Assembly (NCBI RefSeq): GCF_002736205.1
Contig: NZ_CP024091.1
Coordinates: 4,957,555-5,021,554, forward strand
Source: Pedobacter ginsengisoli
GTDB taxonomy: Bacteria > Bacteroidota > Bacteroidia > Sphingobacteriales > Sphingobacteriaceae
DNA length: 64,000 bases
Direction: 5' to 3'
How positions within the stretch are numbered: the first letter of the stretch is position 1; each line of letters starts with the position of its first letter. Below the pieces are notes generated by a model that did not search any database, had not been told where the DNA came from, and was given only the letters and a program-made list of their open reading frames with translations. The translations under genes and the position numbers were made by a program. This document shows, one piece after another, positions 13,556 through 60,707 of the stretch.

Positions 13556-14440
13556 ATGAGAAAAATTATACTTACAGCAGCAATATTTATTACCACCCTT
13601 CAATCAATTGCACAGAAATTCGATCTGCAAGGAAATCGTGGTGCTCGTGGAATAATGCCTGAAAACACAATTCCAGGGATGCTTAGAGCACTGGATCTGG
13701 GCGTAAATACACTAAACATGAATGCTGTAATTTCTAAAGATAAACGGGTTGTACTCTCACAAGAGCCTTACTTTAATTTTGAGATTAGTATTGCTCCCGA
13801 TGGCAAACCCATAACGCTTAAAAATCAAAAGAACTATAATATGTATAAAATGGATTATGCTGACATCAGGAAATTTGATGTGGGTAGCAAGGTTCATAGC
13901 AGGTTCCCTTATCAGGAAAAGATAGAAACATATAAGCCGCTTTTGGAAGAGACAATAGATTCTGTAGAGAACTATGTTAAAAGAAGAAAATTACCAAAAC
14001 CAAATTACAGCATTGAAACAAAAACTATCCCCAAAGGAGATAACGAATTCCATCCGGAACCTGCTGAGTTTGTTGATCTGATTATGGAAATTGTGATTCG
14101 GAAAAAGCTTACCAAACGAGTAACTATACAGTCATTCGATGTAAGAACTTTGCAATACCTGCACGAAAACTATCCAAAAATAAAGACGGCTTTGCTTATT
14201 GATGAGAAGATCGATTTTGAGGTAAATATTGCTGATCTTGGTTTCAAACCAACAGTTTATAGTCCTTATTCAGTTCTGGTTGGTAAAGGATTGGTAGAGC
14301 GTTGCCACGAAGCAGGCGTTAAGATTATACCGTGGACAGTAAACTCAATTAAAGATATGAAGTACCTGATAGGTTTGGGCGTTGATGGTGTAGTTACAGA
14401 TTACCCTAATATTTACAAAAAGGTTATGGATGACAATTAA
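13556..14440 (+). CDS. Glycerophosphodiester phosphodiesterase-like protein lacking catalytic residues (probable pseudoenzyme)
   Basis: 294 residues with a signal peptide (1-19, ending S-I-A-Q). The fold is clearly GDPD: G-A-R-G-I-M-P-E-N-T, Y-S-I-E-T-K, QSFDVRTL, PWTVNS and GVDGVVTDYPN are all present and align with the active-looking homologue at 59163. The catalytic positions are changed. The H-R-G histidine is Asn27 (GNRG). The metal-binding L-E-M-D is L-N-M-N (Asn54, Asn56). The second histidine of T-H-D is Gln69 (LSQE). The third metal ligand, Glu154, remains. Such a protein could bind a glycerophosphodiester or polyol phosphate without cleaving it. It stands alone and ends one base before the convergent moxR stop codon. 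The open frame argues against a decaying pseudogene. Confidence 0.88.
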   Translation: MRKIILTAAIFITTLQSIAQKFDLQGNRGARGIMPENTIPGMLRALDLGVNTLNMNAVISKDKRVVLSQEPYFNFEISIAPDGKPITLKNQKNYNMYKMDYADIRKFDVGSKVHSRFPYQEKIETYKPLLEETIDSVENYVKRRKLPKPNYSIETKTIPKGDNEFHPEPAEFVDLIMEIVIRKKLTKRVTIQSFDVRTLQYLHENYPKIKTALLIDEKIDFEVNIADLGFKPTVYSPYSVLVGKGLVERCHEAGVKIIPWTVNSIKDMKYLIGLGVDGVVTDYPNIYKKVMDDN

Positions 14441-49517: not shown

Positions 49518-50159
49518 TCAAGAGTTTTTTACCAGTATAGCTTCCAGGGCATTGGCTGCATCGTCACACCTGTCGGTAGCCATTTCTAATGTCTGCAGAA
49601 GTTCTTTCTGTTTAATAAGTTCGATTGGATTTAATTCGGTTTTAAAGAGACCGGCAACGGCATGATTACATAGTTTATCTGCTTTGCTTTCACCTTTGTA
49701 TATTCTGAGACAAACATCAGATATAACGGTTTTATTTTTGAAACTCCTAAGCTCCTTAAGTGCACTATCCAGATCTTTACACATTTCTGTGAGTAAGTTT
49801 GCTAGCTTGATCATGGTTTTATCGAGCTGAAGGATGTTATACATTTCAATGCTGATAGCTGCGGCCCTTATATAATCGGAAATATCGTAAACCGCACTAA
49901 TAAGGGTATGGATATCTTCCCGGCTAAAGGGGGTGATGATACTTTTGCTTAATCCAAGGAAAACTGCATGTCTTATTTTATTTACATTACGTTCCAGCTG
50001 CTCTATCTTTTTTATATGTTTATTTCTCTGATCGAGATCATTTGTGCTTAGGGCAAGTAATAACGTTTCGGATATGCTGATCAGATTTTTTCCAGATTGT
50101 TCAAATAGAGGCTGGAATTTTTTGTCGGGCGGAATGAAAAATTTGAGGACGTTGTTCAT
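49518..50159 (-). CDS. DUF47 (PhoU-like) phosphate-transport regulator
   Basis: 213 residues, all helical. The DUF47 pattern is visible: FFIPPDKKFQPLFEQSGKNL, IKKIEQLERNVNKIRHAVFLGL, PFSREDIHTLISAVYDISDYI, and a C-terminal TDRCDDAANALEAILV. Such proteins usually sit next to a low-affinity PiT phosphate transporter and are thought to regulate it. No transporter gene is adjacent here. The upstream gene, 67 bases away on the same strand, is the DeoR-type regulator of the glycerophosphate locus, so a link to phosphate released there is possible but unproven. Confidence 0.88.
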   Translation of the reverse strand: MNNVLKFFIPPDKKFQPLFEQSGKNLISISETLLLALSTNDLDQRNKHIKKIEQLERNVNKIRHAVFLGLSKSIITPFSREDIHTLISAVYDISDYIRAAAISIEMYNILQLDKTMIKLANLLTEMCKDLDSALKELRSFKNKTVISDVCLRIYKGESKADKLCNHAVAGLFKTELNPIELIKQKELLQTLEMATDRCDDAANALEAILVKNS

Positions 50160-50226: not shown

Positions 50227-50991
50227 TTAAATTATAGATATTTTTATTCCCATACTCTCAAGATGTTTTACTGTATGTTCGGAAATACCGCTGTCGGTAA
50301 TGATATGGTCTACTTCTTCGATACCGCATATTCTGCCGAAACCACGTTTGCCAAATTTAGTTGAATCGGCCAGGACAATTATTTTTTGAGATGAATCTAT
50401 CATTTGTCGGTTTAGGTGGGCTTCAAAGGCATTTGTTGTGGTGAGGCCAAATTCAAGGTCTATTCCATCTACCCCTAAAAATAGTTTGCTGCAAAATACA
50501 TTTCCCAATACATTGTCTGAATAGGGGCCGGTAACAGATGATGAGCTTTTTCTTAGCAATCCGCCTAGCTGAATTACTTCTATGTTAGAATGGTGTACAA
50601 GTTCAAGGGCAACATTTAATGCCGATGTAATTACTGTTAAAGCTCCTTTTGGCTTAATACATCTTGCCAGTGCCAGAACAGTAGTTCCGGATGCTATAAT
50701 GATAGAATCATTGTCTTCTATCAGTTCTGCAGCAAGGGTTCCAATTCTTACTTTTTCTGCAGATTGAAGGTGTTCTTTTTCATTAACAGGCTTGTCTACT
50801 GTGTACGGATTGTTTAAAGTTGCCCCTCCATGTGTTCTAAACAGCAGGTTTTTATCTTCGAGGAGTTTCAGATCCTTCCGTATTGTAACAGATGAAACGT
50901 CGAGTTCTTTGCACAGGCTTTGAACATCGAGCGATCCGTTAACCTGAATCTTATTTAAAATATATTGGTGTCTTTCCGCAATGTTAATCAT
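50227..50991 (-). CDS. DeoR-family transcriptional regulator, GlpR-like
   Basis: 254 residues from ATG 50991; a 15-residue upstream extension has no family support. N-terminal DeoR helix-turn-helix (about 4-58): RHQYILNKIQVNGSLDVQSL, ELDVSSVTIRKDLKLLEDK, FRTHGGA. The C-terminal sensor domain (about 75-250, RIGTLAAELIEDNDSIIIASGTT, VITSALNVALEL, KIIVLADSTKFGKRGFG) binds phosphorylated ligands in this family. GlpR of enterobacteria responds to glycerol 3-phosphate. Here the gene diverges from glpD. The shared motif AAACGAAATG upstream of glpD and susC is a candidate operator. Confidence 0.9.
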   Translation of the reverse strand: MINIAERHQYILNKIQVNGSLDVQSLCKELDVSSVTIRKDLKLLEDKNLLFRTHGGATLNNPYTVDKPVNEKEHLQSAEKVRIGTLAAELIEDNDSIIIASGTTVLALARCIKPKGALTVITSALNVALELVHHSNIEVIQLGGLLRKSSSSVTGPYSDNVLGNVFCSKLFLGVDGIDLEFGLTTTNAFEAHLNRQMIDSSQKIIVLADSTKFGKRGFGRICGIEEVDHIITDSGISEHTVKHLESMGIKISII

Positions 50992-51117
50992 TAGAGCTAA
51001 AATATTAAGATCTATTAATATAATGATATTTTTCAACTGTAAAGTTAGCGAAGCAATAAGAATTGTTGTTTAAATTTTTTAATGATTTTGTTTTTATTAT
51101 ATAATAATTATGTTTAG

Positions 51118-51151
51118 TTTCGTTTTATTGCTTTTATTGTTGTAAACGAAA
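51118..51151. promoter_or_regulatory. Candidate operator in the deoR-type/glpD intergenic region
   Basis: TTTCGTTT (51118-51125) and AAACGAAA (51144-51151) form an 8-bp inverted repeat, centres 26 bases apart, between the divergent regulator and glpD genes. A third AAACGAAA overlaps the glpD start. TTTCGTTT-type elements are known targets of several DeoR-family proteins (for example AgaR). Assignment to this regulator is inferred. Confidence 0.6.
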
Positions 51152-51185
51152 GTTTATGAAATAATAATGGCTTAAAATGGTAAAT

Positions 51186-51195
51186 AAACGAAATG
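51186..51195 (+). promoter_or_regulatory. AAACGAAATG element overlapping the glpD start codon
   Basis: The 10-mer AAACGAAATG includes the glpD ATG (51193-51195). The identical 10-mer occurs twice before susC at 52832-52851. A repressor bound here would block glpD transcription or initiation. Confidence 0.55.
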
Positions 51196-52755
51196 ATATT
51201 TAATAGAACAGCATTTATTGAACGGATTGATAAGAAAAGTGATTGGGATGTTATAATTATAGGTGGAGGCGCAACGGGATTAGGTACAGCTGTGGATGCT
51301 GCATCCCGAGGGTATAGCACTCTGCTTTTGGAACAGTCTGATTTTGCAAAGGGGACTTCGAGCAGAAGTACGAAGCTTGTTCATGGAGGAGTAAGGTACT
51401 TGGCTCAGGGTGATATTGCTCTGGTTTATGAGGCTTTGCATGAGCGTGGATTGTTGCTTAAAAACGCAGCGCATTTGGTGAAGGATCAGGATTTTATTAT
51501 ACCGTGCTATTCGTGGTTTTCCAAATACAAGTATTTAATAGGGCTAAAATTTTATGATTTACTGGCTGGGAAAAGTGGGTTTAAAAAATCGTCTTTTTTA
51601 TCTGTTGATAAGGTTTTACAAGCAATTCCAGGTTTAAAACGTGATGGATTGATTGGTGGGATTAGTTATAGCGATGGTCAATTTGATGATGCGAGGTTAG
51701 CATTAAACTTAGCTCAGACTACTGCAGAGTATGGTGGTGTAACGCTTAATTATATGAAGGTGACCGGCCTTAATAAAGAAGGAGGACAGGTTAATGGTGT
51801 TTCGTTTACTGATCTGGAGAGCGGGAAATTGTATTCGTTAAAAGCGAAGGTGGTTGTGAATGCTACAGGCGTATTTGTGGATGAGATTTTAAAGATGGAT
51901 TTGCCTTCTGGCAAGCAAATAGTGCGGCCAAGTCAAGGTGCGCATGTGGTACTTGATAAGTCGTTTTTACAAGGTAATAGTGCCTTAATGATTCCAAAAA
52001 CGTCCGATGGGCGAGTTCTGTTTGCTGTTCCATGGCATGGAAAAGTACTTGTGGGCACAACAGATACTCCACTAGATGAGCACAGTTTGGAGCCAAAACC
52101 ATTGGATGAGGAGATTGATTTTATATTAAGTACGGCAGGTAAATATTTAACTAAAGTACCATCGCGATCTGATGTGCTGGCAACATTCGCCGGTCTACGC
52201 CCGTTAGCCGCGCCCGGTAAAGATACCAATAGCACTAAAGAGATTTCAAGAAGTCATAAGCTGTTAACCAGCAAGTCAGGACTCATTACCATAACCGGTG
52301 GTAAATGGACTACTTATCGCAGAATGGCTATGGATGTGGTGGACAAGGCTATTGAACTTGGTAAGTTGCCTGCTGCCAGTTGTATTACTGAAAACGTTAA
52401 GATTCATGGATATACTCCAGGGATAGATGAAAGCCCGCTGGGGATTTATGGTGCAGATGCACAAGGAATAAGAAGGTTGATGGTTGAGGAGCCTGAATTG
52501 AATGCTTCTGTATACCCGGGCTATGATTATTTAAAGGCAGAGGTGGTTTGGATGGTAAGGAATGAGATGGCCCGCTCCATAGAAGATGTGCTTTCTCGTA
52601 GAATGCGATTGTTGTTTCTTGACGCAAAAGGAGCTTTATTGCTTGCTCCGGAGGTAGCGAGTATGATGGCTGATGAATTGGAGAAGGATGCTAAATGGGT
52701 AGAAAGCCAGATTGAAGAATTCAAAAACCTGGTGAAACAATATTTATTGAGCTAG
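51193..52755 (+). CDS. glpD: Aerobic glycerol-3-phosphate dehydrogenase
   Basis: 520 residues. N-terminal FAD-binding: DVIIIGGGATGLGTAVDAAS (about 20-39), followed by SDFAKGTSSRSTKLVHGGVRYL, the GlpD signature. Further blocks are GGISYSDGQFDDARLALNLAQ, GKVLVGTTDTP, FAGLRPLAAPG and TITGGKWTTYRRMA. The C-terminal DAO_C domain is complete. It oxidises glycerol 3-phosphate to dihydroxyacetone phosphate at the inner membrane and passes electrons to quinone. It is divergent from the GlpR-like regulator and directly upstream of susC. glpK and glpF are not in the window, so glycerol phosphate itself may be the main input (inference). Confidence 0.97.
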   Translation: MIFNRTAFIERIDKKSDWDVIIIGGGATGLGTAVDAASRGYSTLLLEQSDFAKGTSSRSTKLVHGGVRYLAQGDIALVYEALHERGLLLKNAAHLVKDQDFIIPCYSWFSKYKYLIGLKFYDLLAGKSGFKKSSFLSVDKVLQAIPGLKRDGLIGGISYSDGQFDDARLALNLAQTTAEYGGVTLNYMKVTGLNKEGGQVNGVSFTDLESGKLYSLKAKVVVNATGVFVDEILKMDLPSGKQIVRPSQGAHVVLDKSFLQGNSALMIPKTSDGRVLFAVPWHGKVLVGTTDTPLDEHSLEPKPLDEEIDFILSTAGKYLTKVPSRSDVLATFAGLRPLAAPGKDTNSTKEISRSHKLLTSKSGLITITGGKWTTYRRMAMDVVDKAIELGKLPAASCITENVKIHGYTPGIDESPLGIYGADAQGIRRLMVEEPELNASVYPGYDYLKAEVVWMVRNEMARSIEDVLSRRMRLLFLDAKGALLLAPEVASMMADELEKDAKWVESQIEEFKNLVKQYLLS

Positions 52756-52781
52756 TGTGATGGGCGTGAACTTAATATAGT

Positions 52782-52793
52782 GTTAATATTAAC
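52782..52793. promoter_or_regulatory. Perfect palindrome in the susC promoter region
   Basis: GTTAATATTAAC is a perfect 12-bp palindrome placed where the -33 region of the susC promoter would be. It could be a second regulatory site. Confidence 0.4.
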
Positions 52794-52809
52794 TTAAAAC
52801 TACAACTGG

Positions 52810-52851
52810 CATCTTTGCAGCAAAAAGAAAAAAACGAAATGAAACGAAATG
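52810..52851 (+). promoter_or_regulatory. susC promoter with tandem AAACGAAATG operator
   Basis: CATCTTTG (52810-52817) differs from TAnnTTTG only at the first base. It is followed by two head-to-tail copies of AAACGAAATG at 52832-52841 and 52842-52851. The copies fall about 10-30 bases after the expected transcription start, a typical repressor position. The leader to ATG 52892 is about 70 bases. Confidence 0.6.
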
Positions 52852-52891
52852 TTGCAAAAAAAGAAAAGAAAACCAAATAACAAACCCAAGT

Positions 52892-55800
52892 ATGATGAAT
52901 AAAACTTTTACAAATCAAATGCGATTACGAAAAGTTTCAAAGTGTGTGCTTTTTGCATTCTTTGTTACTTTTATGAATCCGCTTCAAATGCTTGCAGCTG
53001 CGCCTATTGCAGTTTCGGGCAAAATGTCTCAGCAGGAGACTATCACAGTTAAAGGAAAGGTAAAGGATGCTGCCGATGGCCAGTTGATGCCAGGGGTAAC
53101 AATAACTGATAATCAAAAGAAAGTTCTGGGTGTTACGAATGGAGAAGGAGCTTTTACTATAACGGTTAATAAAGGTACTGAAGTGTCTTTTAATATGCTT
53201 GGGTATGTTGCTGCTAAAATGATTTTCTCTGAAAATCAGTCAAATGTAGAGGTTAAATTGGCTTCTTCAAGCAGTGAACTTAATGAAGTTGTTGTTACCG
53301 CATTGGGTATAAAACGTGAGGCTAATTCTTTAGGTTTTGGAGCCACAAAAATTGGAGGTAAGGAAATTTCAGATGCTCCTTCTAATAACTGGTCTGACGC
53401 TTTGAAAGGAAAAGTTCCGGGTTTAACGCTTACACAAACTGGTTCCGGGCCTATAAATAGCACCAGAATAAATTTGAGAGGGGATAGATCTTTAAGTGGA
53501 AATAATGAGGCATTAATAGTTGTAGACGGAGTTCCGTTAATAACCCGAGCTGCAAGTTCCGGTGTTAATGATGCTTACGGAGCAGGTTCATCTGGTGCGG
53601 ATAAAGATATTCCGGTAGATTTTGGAAATGGAATTTCGGATATAAATCCTGACGACATAGAATCTATAACTGTATTAAAAGGAGCTGCTGCTGCGGCACT
53701 TTACGGAAGTAGGGCTCAAAATGGCGCTTTTATTATCACTACAAAATCAGGAAGCAAAAGAGACAAGGGAATTGGTGTTACTGTTAACTCAAACAGTAGT
53801 TTTAACGATGTGTTGCGCTGGCCAGATTATCAATATGAGTATGGGCAAGGTAACTTGAACAAGAATAAGGCAGGAGAGCTTTATTATTCTTATTCAGCTT
53901 CGGCGGATGGACCAAACACGGGATCGACATCAAGTGCGTGGGGGCCTAAATTTGATGGCCAAAGTTATTTTCAATATGATCCGAATGTAGAAGGACAAGG
54001 TGCTACAAGAACTCCGTGGGTTCCTTATAAGGATAATATTAAAGGATTTTGGAGGACAGGATATACATTGCAAAATAGCGTGGCACTAGATGGTGGTACG
54101 GATGTGTTTACCGCAAGGGCATCAATTACACATACTAAGAATGAGTGGATAATGCCTAATACGGGTTTTGAAAGAATTGTCGGGTCATTAAATACGAGTT
54201 TGCAACTTTCAAAGAAGCTTAAGCTGAATGGTAAATTTAACTATACAAATAAAACCAGTGATAATTTGCCTGGTACAGGATATAATGGGCAGTCTATTGC
54301 TTACTTTATGATTTTTCAAAATCCAAACGTTGACCTCAATTGGTATGCTCCAAGATGGAAAAAAGGTCAGGAGCAATTGAAACAGATTCACCCATATAGT
54401 TCTTTTATTGAGAATCCTTTTCTGATTGCCAATGAGATGACAAACAGTTTGAATAGCACTAATCTTGATGGGAATTTACAGGGAGTTTATACTTTTAATG
54501 ACAGGTGGGAATTAATGTTTAGATCGGGCATTAACATGCGTGTAGATGCAAGAGAACAGCGCCGGACTTTTGATACAGCTAATTTCCCGCTAGGGTACTA
54601 TAAGCAGCAAGATGTTAATTTCATGGAGTCCAATACGGATGCATTGTTAAGTTATAACAATGAGATTTTGCCAAAATTAGAGTTTCGGGCCTCTATTGGA
54701 GGAAATTTGATGAACAGGGACGAGAAACAAATTAATTCAATTGCAAGAGGGTTACTGCTTCCAGGTGTGTACAAACTTTCAAATGCTTTAACTTCAGCAG
54801 TTGCGGAAAATGGTATATATAAGAGAAAAACGCATAGTGTTTTTGGATTAATGAACTTCTCGTGGGATAAAAAGATTTATCTGGATATTACAGGCCGCAA
54901 TGACTGGTCTTCTACTTTGCCTGAAAATAATAATTCTTATTTCTACCCTTCAGTAAGTTCAAGTTATATTCTGAGTGAGATTTTTAAATTGCCAGAAGTG
55001 ATTTCATTTGCAAAACTTAGGCTTTCATGGGCTCAGATAGGATCTGATACTGAACCATACAGAACTATTAAATATTACGGAGTTTCGGCATTCCCTGGTT
55101 CTTCGGAAGCTCCGAGCACTTTGCAAAATGCAGATCTTAAACCTGAAATGTCAAGATCATGGGAAACTGGAGCTAACATATCTTTATTTAAGAACCGTAT
55201 AAATGCCGATGTGAACTTGTATTTAACAAATACTACAAATCAGGTATTATCTGTTCCTTTAGATATAACTACCGGATTTAGCAGTGCCTTTATAAATGGT
55301 GGAAAAATTAGGAATAAAGGTATTGAAGTAATGCTGAGTGGAAAGCCTGTTGCCACAACGGATTTTACGTGGACATCAACAGTTACCTGGGCAAAGAATA
55401 AGAATACAATTCTGGAATTAAGTAAAGATGTACTTGCTTCGCAACAGGTTATTGCACAGAGTGGTGCTGGTGCAGCGTCGATAATTGCCACAGTTGGAGG
55501 TTCTACAGGTGATTTGTGGGGTTATGGATTGGTAAGAAACGATAAAGGCCAGGTTATTTTTGATAAAGCTACAGGCCTTGCAACCCGCCCTAGCGATATA
55601 CAAAAAATTGGGAATGCTTATGCAGACTGGAGAGGTGGATTTCAGAATGAATTCAGATATAAAGATTTTACACTTAGCGTGCTAATTGATGGACAATATG
55701 GAGGGATAGTTTATTCGCAAACGCATCATAAAATGACAGAGCAAGGTAAATTAAAACATACTTTGGTGGGTCGTGAAGAAGGTGGGGTTATAGGTGATGG

Positions 55801-56158
55801 TGTTGTACAAAATGCTGATGGAACTTTTTCTCCGAATACTACAAGAGTACCGGTTAACACATGGTATGCTGATTATTATCGTCGCGCAAATTTGGAAACC
55901 AATAGCTTTGATGCATCATTTTTAAAGTTAAGGGAGGCTCGTATTGAATATCGCTTGCCTAAATCAGTGATAAATAGATTAAAGGTATCGGGAATTACGG
56001 TGGCACTTTACGGAAGAGACCTTGCGATGATTTCGAAGTTCCCTGCTTTTGATCCTGAAACGGCTGCGTTGAACGGATCAACCATTATGCCGGGTGTGGA
56101 AATGGGCCAATTGCCAAGTACAAGGACCTTTGGATTAAATCTTCGCCTGCAACTGTAA
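52892..56158 (+). CDS. SusC/RagA-type TonB-dependent outer-membrane transporter
   Basis: 1088 residues. A long signal sequence (to about residue 37, ending M-L-A-A-A) precedes a carboxypeptidase-regulatory-like beta-sandwich (about 48-130, ITVKGKVKDAADGQLMPGVT). A TonB-box region with ELNEVVVTALGIKREANSLGF and a plug domain (about 130-280, NEALIVVDGVPLI, ITVLKGAAAAALYGSRAQNG, the SusC signature) follow. The 22-strand barrel continues to the end (STRTFGLNLRLQL). There is no STN domain, so it is not an anti-sigma-coupled type. It imports a substrate captured by the SusD partner encoded 53 bases downstream. The neighbours suggest a glycerophosphate-type substrate rather than a polysaccharide. 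Confidence 0.97.
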   Translation: MMNKTFTNQMRLRKVSKCVLFAFFVTFMNPLQMLAAAPIAVSGKMSQQETITVKGKVKDAADGQLMPGVTITDNQKKVLGVTNGEGAFTITVNKGTEVSFNMLGYVAAKMIFSENQSNVEVKLASSSSELNEVVVTALGIKREANSLGFGATKIGGKEISDAPSNNWSDALKGKVPGLTLTQTGSGPINSTRINLRGDRSLSGNNEALIVVDGVPLITRAASSGVNDAYGAGSSGADKDIPVDFGNGISDINPDDIESITVLKGAAAAALYGSRAQNGAFIITTKSGSKRDKGIGVTVNSNSSFNDVLRWPDYQYEYGQGNLNKNKAGELYYSYSASADGPNTGSTSSAWGPKFDGQSYFQYDPNVEGQGATRTPWVPYKDNIKGFWRTGYTLQNSVALDGGTDVFTARASITHTKNEWIMPNTGFERIVGSLNTSLQLSKKLKLNGKFNYTNKTSDNLPGTGYNGQSIAYFMIFQNPNVDLNWYAPRWKKGQEQLKQIHPYSSFIENPFLIANEMTNSLNSTNLDGNLQGVYTFNDRWELMFRSGINMRVDAREQRRTFDTANFPLGYYKQQDVNFMESNTDALLSYNNEILPKLEFRASIGGNLMNRDEKQINSIARGLLLPGVYKLSNALTSAVAENGIYKRKTHSVFGLMNFSWDKKIYLDITGRNDWSSTLPENNNSYFYPSVSSSYILSEIFKLPEVISFAKLRLSWAQIGSDTEPYRTIKYYGVSAFPGSSEAPSTLQNADLKPEMSRSWETGANISLFKNRINADVNLYLTNTTNQVLSVPLDITTGFSSAFINGGKIRNKGIEVMLSGKPVATTDFTWTSTVTWAKNKNTILELSKDVLASQQVIAQSGAGAASIIATVGGSTGDLWGYGLVRNDKGQVIFDKATGLATRPSDIQKIGNAYADWRGGFQNEFRYKDFTLSVLIDGQYGGIVYSQTHHKMTEQGKLKHTLVGREEGGVIGDGVVQNADGTFSPNTTRVPVNTWYADYYRRANLETNSFDASFLKLREARIEYRLPKSVINRLKVSGITVALYGRDLAMISKFPAFDPETAALNGSTIMPGVEMGQLPSTRTFGLNLRLQL

Positions 56159-56211
56159 TTGGTTTCAGATAAAATATTGATAATAAGGCTTTGGCCAAAA
56201 AAGAAATAAAG

Positions 56212-57669
56212 ATGAAAAAAAAGATAATCGCCATTTTTACCTTAGTTAGTCTGATGGCAGCCTCTTCATGTACTAAAAACTTTGAAGAACTAAATGTTGA
56301 TCCTAACCGAATAGATAAAGTAACGCCGGGAAGTTTAATTACTCCAACCATTTATGGAATGAGTACTTATTTTACAGTTAGGAGTTATGATTTTACCTGG
56401 CAACTGATGCAGGTAGGAATCCCGAATCCAAGCGTTGCTCTTGGAATACACCGTTATGACGTTCAGGAAGGTGCCGGAAACGGAACCTGGAACAATTGTT
56501 ACAAATATTTACGGAATGTTAGAGAGATGGAGGCTGCATCAGTAACATATAATCAGCCGGCTTATAAAGCTGTGGCCATTACCTTGCGTGCTTACATTAC
56601 AGGGATTTTGACCGATAGTTTTGGTGATATTCCGTTTTCGGAAGCATTGCAGGCAGAAGATAAGATCACACAACCTAAGTTTGACACTCAGGAAGAAATT
56701 TATACTTCTTTAATAAAACAATTAGAGGAGGCAAATACCATTTATAGTGGAACTGAGGTGATGTCAGGAAATGATCTCTTGTATAATAACGTAAAAGCCA
56801 ACTGGCGTAAGTTTAATAACTCACTTTTGATGCGCATGATCTTGCGTCTTTCAAAAAAAGCTGAGTTTAAGAGTTATGAGAAATTGGCGGCAATAATTGC
56901 TGATCCTGTTAAATACCCCGTATTTACTAGCAATACTGAGGCAGCAATTGTAAAAGTTAACGGTGTAGCACCTTATGATTATGCATGGGGCCGCCGTCAG
57001 GACTATGTTAACTTTACCGCTATGGGCTCATTCTTTGTTGATATGTTGAATGACCTGGAAGATCCAAGAAGAGCTTTATTTATGACAAAGGCTTCAAGAA
57101 TTGTAAACGATAAATCAGAAAGTATAGGATATAAGGGATTTACTGCAGGTCACTCTGGTGATATTACTCAATTTGATTTTAATCCAAGTACTCCAAATGG
57201 CGATTTGATGTATCCAAGTGCTGTAGGGACATTTATTAATGAAATTATAATGAGTTATGCTGAGGTAGAATTTATTAAAGCTGAGGTTGCATTGAAAACC
57301 GGTGATTTGGCTGCGGCAAAAGTTGCGTATGAAAAGGGAGTTACGGCCGCAGTAACCCAATGGCCAAATGGTGTAATGCCTGCAAATTATTTTGTAAACC
57401 AAAAGGCTGCTTTTAATGGGACATTTGAGCAGATTATGAACCAAAAATATCTAGCCTTATTCTTTTGTGATTATCAGCAATGGTTTGAATATCGCAGAAC
57501 CGGCTTCCCTGTTTTGCCTAAAACGGAATTTATGCTTCATAATGGAGAAATGCCAACCCGTTTTATGTACCATAATGATGTACGCAGATTTAATCCTGCT
57601 AATTATAAAATCGCAGCTGATCGTATTGGAGGCGATAATGTGATGACCAAAGTATGGTGGGAAAAGTAA
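56212..57669 (+). CDS. SusD/RagB-type substrate-binding lipoprotein (SusD-like_2 group)
   Basis: 485 residues from ATG 56212; an upstream TTG start adds seven residues and is unlikely. The signal ends A-A-S-S-C (lipidated Cys about 20). The mature protein begins TKNFEELNVDPNRIDKVTPG, typical of the SusD-like_2 group (PF12771-type). TPR-like helices follow: YLRNVREMEAASV, AITLRAYITGILTDSFGDIPFSEAL, EEIYTSLIKQLEEA, FNNSLLMRMILRLSKKA. The C-terminal part contains FINEIIMSYAEVEFIKAEVAL and QKYLALFFCDYQQWFEYRRTG. It forms the lid of the SusC pore. A terminator-like hairpin follows before the phosphoesterase gene. Confidence 0.95.
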   Translation: MKKKIIAIFTLVSLMAASSCTKNFEELNVDPNRIDKVTPGSLITPTIYGMSTYFTVRSYDFTWQLMQVGIPNPSVALGIHRYDVQEGAGNGTWNNCYKYLRNVREMEAASVTYNQPAYKAVAITLRAYITGILTDSFGDIPFSEALQAEDKITQPKFDTQEEIYTSLIKQLEEANTIYSGTEVMSGNDLLYNNVKANWRKFNNSLLMRMILRLSKKAEFKSYEKLAAIIADPVKYPVFTSNTEAAIVKVNGVAPYDYAWGRRQDYVNFTAMGSFFVDMLNDLEDPRRALFMTKASRIVNDKSESIGYKGFTAGHSGDITQFDFNPSTPNGDLMYPSAVGTFINEIIMSYAEVEFIKAEVALKTGDLAAAKVAYEKGVTAAVTQWPNGVMPANYFVNQKAAFNGTFEQIMNQKYLALFFCDYQQWFEYRRTGFPVLPKTEFMLHNGEMPTRFMYHNDVRRFNPANYKIAADRIGGDNVMTKVWWEK

Positions 57670-57683
57670 TTTGACCAAGAAAG

Positions 57684-57706
57684 GCTTGCAGTTAGTTTCT
57701 GCAAGC
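57684..57706 (+). terminator. Terminator or attenuator after susD
   Basis: GCTTGCAG (57684-57691) pairs with CTGCAAGC (57699-57706) around a seven-base loop, followed by seven T residues. It lies inside the cluster, 22 bases before the phosphoesterase start. Partial termination would keep SusCD levels above the enzyme levels. Confidence 0.75.
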
Positions 57707-57727
57707 TTTTTTTAGATTTAAATAAGA

Positions 57728-59140
57728 ATGAATAGAAGATCATTTATACAAAGTTTTGGCTTATTTACAGGGGCCGCATTTATTAGTTTACAAACCAAAG
57801 GTTATGGTAACCTGAAGAGAGGTGATACCATTAAAGGTAAGGTAATAGCAAACAGAAAAGGTGTGGCAGGGGTAGCTATTTCTGACGGATTCTCTGTAGT
57901 AATTACAAATTCAAAAGGCGAGTATATAATAAATCCACATCAAAATGCTATTCAAATATTTATGTCGACACCTTCAGGCTATGAATTTAAAACAACTCAT
58001 AATATAGCAGAACAGTATGAAATGCTTGGAAGTAGGAATCAATATGATTTTGAGCTGATACGTTTAAAAAAGAATGATGACAAGCATAATTTTATTGTAT
58101 GGGCTGACCCGCAGGTAAAGAACAAAAAGGATGTTCAGCAAATGATGGAGACAGCTGTTCCTGATGTTAAGAAGGAGATTGCAACTATGGGGTCTGATGC
58201 TTTGGTTCATGGTATTTGTGTGGGTGATATAGTTTGGGATAATCATGCGCTTTTTCCGGACTATAATGCCGCAGTAGCTCAGATGGGGATTCCATTTTTC
58301 CAGGCATTAGGGAATCATGATATGGACTACAGGCAAGGTGGAGATGATACTTCTGACAAGACCTTTAAAGAAGTATATGGGCCAACATATTATTCTTTTA
58401 ATCGCGGAAAGGCGCATTATGTGGTTCTTGATGATGTAAGATATCTGGGTAGTGAAAGACTATATGATGGCTATATAACTGAAAACCAGTTGGAGTGGTT
58501 GGCGAAGGATTTGCAGTATGTTGATAAGGGTAAACTGATCATAATTTGTCTTCATATACCTGTTCATAATGCAGTTAAAAATAATGAAGCACTTTATGCC
58601 ACTTTGGAAGGGTTTGAGAATGTACACATTATGTCGGGGCATACCCATTATAATACTAACGTAATCAAAAATGGAGTTTACGAGCATAATCACGGAACAG
58701 TGTGCGGTGCCTGGTGGACAGGGCCAATATGTGAGGATGGAACGCCAAGGGGCTACGGTGTTTATGAGGTAGATGGAACAAAAATGAAATGGTATTACAA
58801 ATCTACAGGATTGGATAGGACAAAACAGTTGAACATTTACGTAGATAAGCTAAGTGACCAACAAAGGCTTGTGGCAAATGTTTGGAATTGGGATCCGGAA
58901 TGGAAAGTAGAATATGCCATTGATGATAAGCCTATGGGGGCACTTGAACAATTAAAGGGGTATGACCCATTGGCTGTTGAATTATACAAAGGCGATGACC
59001 TGCCAATAGGAAGAACTTTTGCTGAGCCTAGAAAAACGGAACATTTGTTTATTGCTCATTTTAATGCCTCAATAAAAAAAGTTGAAGTGAATGTGACGGA
59101 TCGTTTTGGAAATAAGTATACAGCTGTTGCTGAATCATAA
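57728..59140 (+). CDS. Exported calcineurin-like metallophosphoesterase (three-domain)
   Basis: 470 residues. The N-terminus MNRRSFIQSFGLFTGAAF has a twin-arginine-type R-R-S-F motif and hydrophobic core, so export may be by Tat. A beta-sandwich N-terminal domain (about 32-115) precedes the metallophosphatase core (about 120-330): VWADPQ, CVGDIVWDNH, LGNHDMD, CLHIPVHN and SGHTHYN, the five metal-binding motifs. The first has Gln where many relatives have His. A C-terminal beta domain (about 340-470) completes the MetallophosN-Metallophos-MetallophosC order. It probably removes phosphate from a small phosphorylated substrate such as glycerol phosphate outside the cytoplasm; the substrate is inferred from context. 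Confidence 0.9.
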   Translation: MNRRSFIQSFGLFTGAAFISLQTKGYGNLKRGDTIKGKVIANRKGVAGVAISDGFSVVITNSKGEYIINPHQNAIQIFMSTPSGYEFKTTHNIAEQYEMLGSRNQYDFELIRLKKNDDKHNFIVWADPQVKNKKDVQQMMETAVPDVKKEIATMGSDALVHGICVGDIVWDNHALFPDYNAAVAQMGIPFFQALGNHDMDYRQGGDDTSDKTFKEVYGPTYYSFNRGKAHYVVLDDVRYLGSERLYDGYITENQLEWLAKDLQYVDKGKLIIICLHIPVHNAVKNNEALYATLEGFENVHIMSGHTHYNTNVIKNGVYEHNHGTVCGAWWTGPICEDGTPRGYGVYEVDGTKMKWYYKSTGLDRTKQLNIYVDKLSDQQRLVANVWNWDPEWKVEYAIDDKPMGALEQLKGYDPLAVELYKGDDLPIGRTFAEPRKTEHLFIAHFNASIKKVEVNVTDRFGNKYTAVAES

Positions 59141-59162
59141 AACGCATTAAACAATTATAAGA

Positions 59163-60707
59163 ATGAAGAAACTGATAATTTTAGGAGTTGGGATTTTATT
59201 ATGCCTATACGCTTGTAAAACAAGTAAAAATAATGCTTTCAATTATAATTCAGGGTTTCCGTTGTTTAGTACTGAAGCGCATAGAGGGGGGAGAGGATTA
59301 ATGCCGGAGAATACAATTATTGCTATGCGTAATGCAATAGATATTGGAGTAACTACTTTGGAAATGGACACCCATATCACTAAAGATGGTAGAGTTGTGG
59401 TTACACATGATGATTATTTAAGCCCGGGGTTTATGTTAACTCCTGATGGCAAAGATATCCCAGTTGGAGATTCAAAAAGATATGCGGTTTATCAAATGAA
59501 TTACGACGTATTAAAAACGTTTGATTTGGGGTCAAAAATTAACACAGGGTTTCCTGATCAAAAGAAGGTTAAATCCTACATCCCACTTTTGGCCGATTTA
59601 ATAGATTCTGTTCAGCAATATTCAAAAGGTAAAAAACAGATGTTCTATAATATTGAAACTAAATGCAGCGTGGCAGGTGATAATATTTTGAATCCTGAAC
59701 CAGAAAAATTCGTAGAGCTATTAATGGGTGTAATAGAAAGTAAAGGTATAACCCCTTATGTAGTTATTCAATCTTTTGACAAAAGAACACTACAAATCCT
59801 CAATAAGAAGTACCCAAAAGTAAAGACATCTTTTCTGGTAGATAATAAGAAAGATGTTGAACAGAATTTAACAGACCTTGGTTTTAATCCTTTTATAATA
59901 AGTCCGGCTTTTAAAATGGTTGATGAAGCCATGGTGAAAAAGAGCCACGAAAAGCATATCAAGGTAATCCCTTGGACAGTAAATACAAAGGTGGATATCA
60001 ATAGACTAAAAAAGATGGGGGTTGATGGAATTATTTCTGACTATCCGAATTTGTTTGCAGACTCCTTTCCTATCAAGTCATCTACTGGACAGAGTATGGC
60101 CTGGGATAGTACCTACAGACCTGCTAAATATAAGGAGTTGATAGAAAAGTTTAATGCGGATAAGAAATCTGAGAAGGACTTCGTGTTTTTGGGCAATAGT
60201 ATAACGGCTGGAGGTAACTGGGCTAAGTTGCTTGATTTGCCGAATGCAAAAAATAGAGGTATCTCTGGTGATATTACATTTGGTGTTTTAGAGCGGTTAA
60301 ATGGAGTAATATCAGGGAAGCCTGCTAAAGTATTTATTTTGATAGGGATTAATGATATTTCGAGAAATATTCCTGATAGTATTATTCTTAGAAATTATAA
60401 AACGATAATCAGCAGAATTCGTAAAGGATCAAAAAGAACCAGGATTTACTTTTATACTCTTTTGCCGGTAAATAGTGAGTTTAATAAGTTTAAAAATCAT
60501 TATGCCAAGGATGAGCATATTTTATGGCTAAATGAACAGATAAGGAATTTTAAAGACAAACAGCTTACAATAATTGATCTATATCCGCAGTTTATTGATG
60601 GAGCAAATCACCTCAGGGCAGATTTAACCAAAGATGGCCTGCACCTGAATGATGCAGGATATAAGATATGGTGCGATTTTCTTAAAAATGAGGGTTATGT
60701 GAAATAG
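59163..60707 (+). CDS. Lipoprotein fusing glycerophosphodiester phosphodiesterase and SGNH esterase
   Basis: 514 residues. The signal ends L-Y-A-C (Cys18, lipidated). Residues 35-300 are a GDPD domain with catalytic residues intact: EAHRGGRG (His40), LEMD (Glu67, Asp69), VTHDD (His82), YNIETK (Glu165) and PWTVNT. Residues 340-512 are an SGNH/GDSL hydrolase: FLGNSITAG (Ser346), RGISGD (Gly), IGINDI (Asn) and KDGLHLNDAGY (Asp491, His494). One half cleaves glycerophosphodiesters to glycerol 3-phosphate plus an alcohol; the other should cleave an ester, such as an acyl or acetyl group. Together they suit stepwise breakdown of phospholipid-like or teichoic-acid-like material at the cell surface. 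It is the last gene of the cluster, 22 bases after the phosphoesterase. Confidence 0.93.
   Translation: MKKLIILGVGILLCLYACKTSKNNAFNYNSGFPLFSTEAHRGGRGLMPENTIIAMRNAIDIGVTTLEMDTHITKDGRVVVTHDDYLSPGFMLTPDGKDIPVGDSKRYAVYQMNYDVLKTFDLGSKINTGFPDQKKVKSYIPLLADLIDSVQQYSKGKKQMFYNIETKCSVAGDNILNPEPEKFVELLMGVIESKGITPYVVIQSFDKRTLQILNKKYPKVKTSFLVDNKKDVEQNLTDLGFNPFIISPAFKMVDEAMVKKSHEKHIKVIPWTVNTKVDINRLKKMGVDGIISDYPNLFADSFPIKSSTGQSMAWDSTYRPAKYKELIEKFNADKKSEKDFVFLGNSITAGGNWAKLLDLPNAKNRGISGDITFGVLERLNGVISGKPAKVFILIGINDISRNIPDSIILRNYKTIISRIRKGSKRTRIYFYTLLPVNSEFNKFKNHYAKDEHILWLNEQIRNFKDKQLTIIDLYPQFIDGANHLRADLTKDGLHLNDAGYKIWCDFLKNEGYVK

Follow-up and report, generated by a model that had tools for sequence, protein, structure and literature searches.

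A SusCD system is almost automatically taken for a glycan importer, and it can be asked what such a pair takes up when it stands among phosphoesterase and glycerol genes. Such an arrangement is found in the soil bacterium Pedobacter ginsengisoli, in a stretch of 64,000 nucleotides (contig NZ_CP024091.1, positions 4,957,555 to 5,021,554; hereafter the window) from a genome that forms a single contig of 5.37 Mb. There, genes for a DeoR-family regulator, the glycerol-3-phosphate dehydrogenase GlpD, SusC, SusD, an exported metallophosphoesterase (MPE) and a lipoprotein fusing GDPD and SGNH domains lie together. An initial annotation, made from the DNA letters alone, proposed that this locus serves glycerophosphodiesters rather than polysaccharides. 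Pfam- and NCBIfam-type models with curated cut-offs, applied to the nine proteins called between 48058 and 61884, showed that all the genes it had named, including a DUF47 gene next door, are intact and correctly placed. As it had also claimed, none of these nine proteins matches a glycoside hydrolase or polysaccharide lyase family. A SusC/RagA-type transporter thus adjoins a SusD-type lipoprotein, as in Sus-type uptake, while the carbohydrate-active enzymes (CAZymes) of a polysaccharide utilization locus (PUL) are missing. We consider it likely that the locus is a Sus-type uptake and catabolic system for glycerophosphodiesters, such as lipid head groups, lysolipids or short glycerophosphate oligomers.

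A search of 60 genomes of the genus, at an identity of at least 60%, recovered a full-length MPE relative in 47 of them and a partial relative in a further genome. Comparison of 40 stretches of the genus, mostly of 20 kb each, revealed a common gene order: SusC, SusD, a DUF5689 lipoprotein, MPE, GDPD, often GlpT, and then SGNH. Once the scan was widened to named genomes and to 395 genomes from the phylum, 76 non-redundant MPE loci were considered, from Pedobacter, Mucilaginibacter, Nubsella, Rufibacter (Hymenobacteraceae) and Pseudoflavitalea (Chitinophagaceae); counts over these loci include related species, and the events are not independent. SusC/SusD and DUF5689 are each present in 73 loci, GDPD in 63 and SGNH in 52, followed by GlpT (25), GlpD (22), GlpK (13) and GlpF (8). 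For instance, in G181, which belongs to another genus of Sphingobacteriaceae, ten co-directional genes are aligned as glpD-glpK-glpF-GDPD-susC-susD-MPE-GDPD-glpT-SGNH, its GlpF being a MIP protein. In Pseudoflavitalea, deoR diverges from glpD-susC-susD-DUF5689-MPE-glpK-glpF-GDPD, and P. glucosidilyticus carries glpD-glpK-glpF-susC-susD-DUF5689-MPE-SGNH. The genome G312 has deoR, glpD, glpK and glpF together with the MPE, without SusCD. Collectively, the SusC-SusD-MPE-GDPD-SGNH set, which glpD, glpK, glpF and glpT join or leave, recurs in Sphingobacteriaceae, Hymenobacteraceae and Chitinophagaceae, and since it does so in three families, the grouping is far beyond chance. The initial annotation had staked its reading on such conservation, and the synteny, together with a shared candidate operator, strongly supports this reading in outline. 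None of the 17 loci fetched for distant MPE homologues of the phylum (at most 45% identity) has glp or GDPD neighbours, indicating that the association is confined to a close MPE clade.

The inner-membrane step is also linked to the locus in relatives. Sixteen full-length GlpT were found among the 60 genomes of the genus, and all 16 lie inside the MPE locus, between GDPD and SGNH; two of them were checked against the curated glpT model TIGR00712, and both score above its cut-off. Since the chance of a single-copy gene falling within 12 kb is about 0.4% per genome, this placement is no coincidence, even when shared descent is allowed for. In 15 of 52 genomes, the single glpD copy is separated from the MPE by no more than about 13 kb; in the others, it mostly adjoins glpK at another place. 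The glpD of the window is the only copy found in its genome, and the best NCBIfam model for its product is glycerol-3-phosphate dehydrogenase (289 bits, under that model's cut-off). A search of this genome at E 1e-60 detected no GlpT, nor did the genome yield any other recognisable organophosphate antiporter. One MFS gene scored best in a wider organophosphate-transporter model; it is located between genes that read as a D-galactonate-type dehydratase and kinase and was taken to encode a galactonate transporter. The glpK-glpF genes sit away from the locus, from C1:4326502 onwards, and a PhoA-family phosphatase is encoded in the genome as well. Thus, of the inner-membrane uptake systems that had been expected elsewhere, glpK-glpF are indeed elsewhere, but GlpT is not, and in relatives it belongs to the locus itself. 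The lack of GlpT suggests that, in the window's genome, the phosphate is lost outside and entry occurs as free glycerol.

The fusion lipoprotein carries the lipobox LYAC, followed by GDPD at about residues 35-300 and the SGNH esterase at about 310-514. As previously claimed, its GDPD domain is intact: the catalytic residues H40, R41, E49, N50, E67, D69, H82 and E165 are conserved in 64 members. The SGNH/GDSL blocks are likewise present (GNSIT 344, RGISGD 365, GIND 395 and DGLHL 491). Across locus members, H40, E49-N50, E67, D69, H82 and E165, together with S346, N397, D491 and H494, show at least 97% identity. Among solved structures, the GDPD half matches 3ch0, a GDPD, at 3e-62, and the SGNH half comes nearest to esterases of the lysophospholipase L1 and PAF-acetylhydrolase types. 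Among the loci examined, the two domains are fused solely in the window's genome and encoded by separate genes elsewhere. When aligned with the sister genome G002, where the two genes are adjacent, the window lacks about 65 bp, including the GDPD stop and the start of the SGNH signal peptide, and the frame is kept; the fusion arose by in-frame deletion of this segment.

The MPE begins with MNRRSF, in which RRSF reads as a twin-arginine-like leader. It carries the metal-binding motifs of a calcineurin-like metallophosphoesterase (D..GD..GNHD..H..GHxH), and the metal-site residues D127, G166-D167, G195-N196-H197-D198, H276, G304-H305 and H307 are shared by all of 40 sequences. In place of D-x-H, the first motif reads D-P-Q, whose D and Q do not vary among the 40 homologues. 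A profile search found no sequence relative of the MPE in the PDB. A structure model based on 24 close sequences was poor (pLDDT 69), and addition of distant homologues gave a pLDDT of 88. For the latter model, the best structural match is GpdQ, a glycerophosphodiesterase of Enterobacter aerogenes (PDB 2zo9, 3d03; Z 24.2, 2.3 Å over 216 residues), though at 18% identity and tied with Rv0805; purple acid phosphatases (Z about 22) and PhoD (Z 18.1) score lower. This resemblance concerns the catalytic domain, since the MPE, unlike GpdQ, bears extra N- and C-terminal domains (MetallophosN and MetallophosC). Because the modelled fold is nearest to the phosphodiesterases GpdQ and Rv0805 and the metal-site residues are invariant, the MPE is more likely to be a phosphodiesterase than a plain phosphatase. 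It may thus be a second phosphodiesterase instead of the optional phosphatase that had been proposed. In G002, all that is left of the MPE between SusD and GDPD is a C-terminal piece of ~113 codons (L061 9426-9803); despite this, SusCD, GDPD and SGNH of that genome look intact.

The start of SusD is best placed at the first ATG of the interval tabulated below, which yields a lipoprotein signal with the lipobox ..MAASSC, and homologues of the protein exist among the SusD structures of the PDB. The window SusC is just 40-46% identical to most other SusCs of these loci. In a tree, it forms a separate lineage with those of G002 (96% identical) and G181 (support 95/91), beside the DUF5689-linked SusC type, indicating that the same set of enzymes is associated with two SusCD lineages. 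The window's lineage is devoid of DUF5689; a lipoprotein of this family occupies the SusE position in nearly all other loci (e.g. L062 9247-10842).

The candidate operator mentioned above, AAACGAAA, is present in three copies in the deoR-glpD gap of the window and in two copies before susC. The tandem form, AAACGAAANNAAACGAAA, has the window site as its sole match in the whole genome when up to one mismatch is accepted. Seventeen deoR-glpD gaps together hold 27 AAACGAAA sites, where shuffled sequences give well under 1 in total. The motif also occurs before susC in 6 of the 8 glpD-susC gaps (7 matches, 0.15 expected) and in none of the 22 FecR-susC gaps. No site was found before glpK of the window's genome, the one match in the 18 kb searched being away from that gene. 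We propose that AAACGAAA is probably the DeoR operator and that the DeoR-family protein would bind it as a repressor. Since the candidate is common to the deoR-glpD gap and the region upstream of susC, co-regulation of glpD and susC is predicted. The regulator had been described as GlpR-like: it does belong to the DeoR family, but orthology to GlpR does not hold, as it scores 118 bits against the cut-off of 331 of the enterobacterial model PRK10906. Its best curated model, AgaR, gives 247 bits, under the cut-off of 260. The label GlpR-like therefore derives from the neighbouring genes. DeoR is present in 18 of the 76 MPE loci, and other loci carry an ECF/FecR pair in its place, indicating that regulation has been swapped between loci.

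In the route that we propose, SusCD would capture the phosphodiester at the cell surface and import it. The SGNH domain would remove acyl esters, or another ester, and the GDPD domain and the GpdQ-like MPE would cut the phosphodiester into glycerol 3-phosphate and an alcohol. In GlpT-bearing relatives, GlpT would then move glycerol 3-phosphate across the inner membrane to GlpD. In the window's genome, the phosphate would be removed outside by the MPE or the PhoA-type phosphatase; glycerol would enter via GlpF, be re-phosphorylated by GlpK and be oxidised by GlpD. A DeoR-family repressor acting at the AAACGAAA sites would control glpD and susC jointly.

Several observations weigh against this assignment. 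A calcineurin-like fold does not dictate the specificity of the MPE, and purple acid phosphatases are close behind the best matches. Some loci (L097, L098, L100, L144 and L151) hold just an ECF sigma factor, FecR, SusC, SusD, DUF5689 and the MPE, with no GDPD or glp gene; the constant MPE-SusCD core may therefore serve a broader class of phosphodiesters. Moreover, a GH36 alpha-galactosidase is found in three loci (L065 12673-14823, L071 and L171) and a NAGPA phosphodiester glycosidase in one (L077 8263-9669), suggesting glycosylated substrates, possibly glycerophosphates, in those species.

Tentatively, SusCD could import a glycerophosphate polymer or an intact lysophospholipid, with MPE, GDPD and SGNH constituting a dedicated depolymerising set. 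If so, Pedobacter-type bacteria would take nutrients from the teichoic acids or membrane debris of other microbes, by means of a Sus-like system under a glycerol-type repressor. A locus devoted to teichoic acid, which we find rather doubtful, would import 1,3-polyglycerophosphate oligomers through SusCD; the MPE would act as an endo-enzyme, GDPD would trim the ends like GlpQ, and SGNH would remove D-alanyl or acyl esters. GlpQ and PhoD are teichoic-acid recycling enzymes of Bacillus subtilis. The set of GlpQ-like GDPD, metallophosphoesterase and GlpT parallels them, and GlpQ acting on glycerophosphate polymers is treated in published papers. A polymer would also explain the need for a SusCD pair, and the GH36 and NAGPA genes suit glycosylated chains. 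However, sugar-cleaving genes are rare among the loci, the SGNH half, when compared with solved structures, best resembles esterases of the lysophospholipase type, and the MPE model is nearer to GpdQ than to PhoD.

It is unlikely that the locus is of the phosphorus-scavenging PusCD kind, with phosphate under starvation as the aim and glycerol as a by-product, even though the PusCD loci of Flavobacterium, which are switched on when phosphate is depleted, also place SusCD beside phosphodiesterases (PMC8115612). The PhoU-like DUF47 gene adjoining the window locus would suit such a function; it is indeed next door, as initially noted, but DUF47 was recognised in just 3 of the 40 genus loci and is thus a neighbour outside the conserved system. 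Furthermore, the genes linked to the locus are glpD, glpK, glpF, glpT and that of a DeoR-family regulator, for which shared candidate sites exist; this points to carbon or glycerol 3-phosphate sensing. Finally, that the SusCD core serves another substrate, with the glp and GDPD genes as chance or loosely linked neighbours, is disfavoured as highly improbable: core-only loci under ECF/FecR control and the divergence of the window SusC would fit it, but the invariable position of GlpT, the presence of GDPD in most MPE loci and the co-linear operons in two other genera argue against it.

PusCD loci are the nearest published relatives of the glycerophosphodiester system proposed here, in which SusCD is co-located with MPE and GDPD in an arrangement conserved across MPE loci. 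In Flavobacterium johnsoniae, PUSI comprises a PF00149 enzyme and a PI-PLC-like enzyme and PUSII comprises PhoA; both loci act in phosphate starvation, and their description there mentions no glp genes (PMC8115612). As in PUSI and PUSII, a SusCD pair stands beside periplasmic phosphodiesterases or phosphatases in place of CAZymes; unlike them, the present locus type carries GDPD, SGNH, GlpT or GlpF/GlpK, GlpD and a DeoR-family regulator. No such glp-linked form turned up in the literature searched: for a glycerophosphodiester or teichoic-acid Sus locus, just the Pus work was found, in searches that reached subscription papers in small part. With Sus-type glycan PULs the locus shares SusC, SusD, either a local repressor or an ECF/FecR pair and, in most relatives, a DUF5689 lipoprotein at the place of SusE, whereas the window has phosphoesterases and glycerol genes and no glycoside hydrolase or lyase. 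The glpTQ/glp regulons of E. coli and B. subtilis combine GDPD, GlpT and GlpD (with GlpF and GlpK); in E. coli, their repressor is of the DeoR family. The same set recurs here; unlike those regulons, the locus adds a TonB-dependent SusCD step, the exported GpdQ-like MPE and an SGNH esterase, and the window's genome is without GlpT.

In three Bacteroidota families, a conserved family of SusCD loci is thus linked to the catabolism of glycerol phosphates, and between loci there are swaps of the transporter (two SusCD lineages), of the inner-membrane step (GlpT or GlpF/GlpK) and of regulation (DeoR or ECF/FecR). It offers a defined and testable route for the carbon and phosphorus of phospholipids or teichoic acids in soil and a means of annotating "PULs without CAZymes"; for the MetallophosN/C family, it provides a concrete candidate function.

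Table 1. Genes and candidate operator sites of the locus, in window coordinates.
Feature	Position	Strand	Model scores and remarks
DUF47 / PhoU-like (PhoU_div) gene, neighbour	49518..50159	-	PF01865 75 bits
DeoR-family regulator	50227..51036	-	DeoRC 165 bits, HTH_DeoR 58 bits; divergent from glpD
AAACGAAA site 1, candidate operator	51118..51125	-	deoR-glpD gap
AAACGAAA site 2, candidate operator	51144..51151	+	deoR-glpD gap
AAACGAAA site 3, candidate operator	51186..51193	+	at glpD start
glpD, FAD-dependent sn-glycerol-3-phosphate dehydrogenase	51193..52755	+	DAO 193 bits, DAO_C 74 bits
AAACGAAATGAAACGAAA, tandem candidate operator	52832..52849	+	before susC
SusC-type TonB-dependent transporter	52892..56158	+	TIGR04056 573 bits (cut-off 368)
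SusD-type surface lipoprotein (SusD-like_2)	56212..57669	+	PF12771 374 bits; start at ATG 56212
Exported calcineurin-like phosphoesterase (MPE)	57728..59140	+	MetallophosN/Metallophos/MetallophosC domains
GDPD + Lipase_GDSL_2 fusion lipoprotein	59163..60707	+	GDPD 123 bits, Lipase_GDSL_2 90 bits

Some minor features were also observed. The record of L150, "Flavobacteriaceae bacterium PS02338", shows a typical Pedobacter gene order, and its name may be wrong. A membrane protein of the fatty-acid-hydroxylase family (PF04116) is encoded upstream in 24 loci (e.g. L078 1493-2779); it might be lipid-related, acting for example on ether lipids. The window contains a second, unfused GDPD gene at 13556-14440 (+), away from SusCD, whose product is 46% identical to the fused GDPD; similar copies are present in most genomes of the genus.

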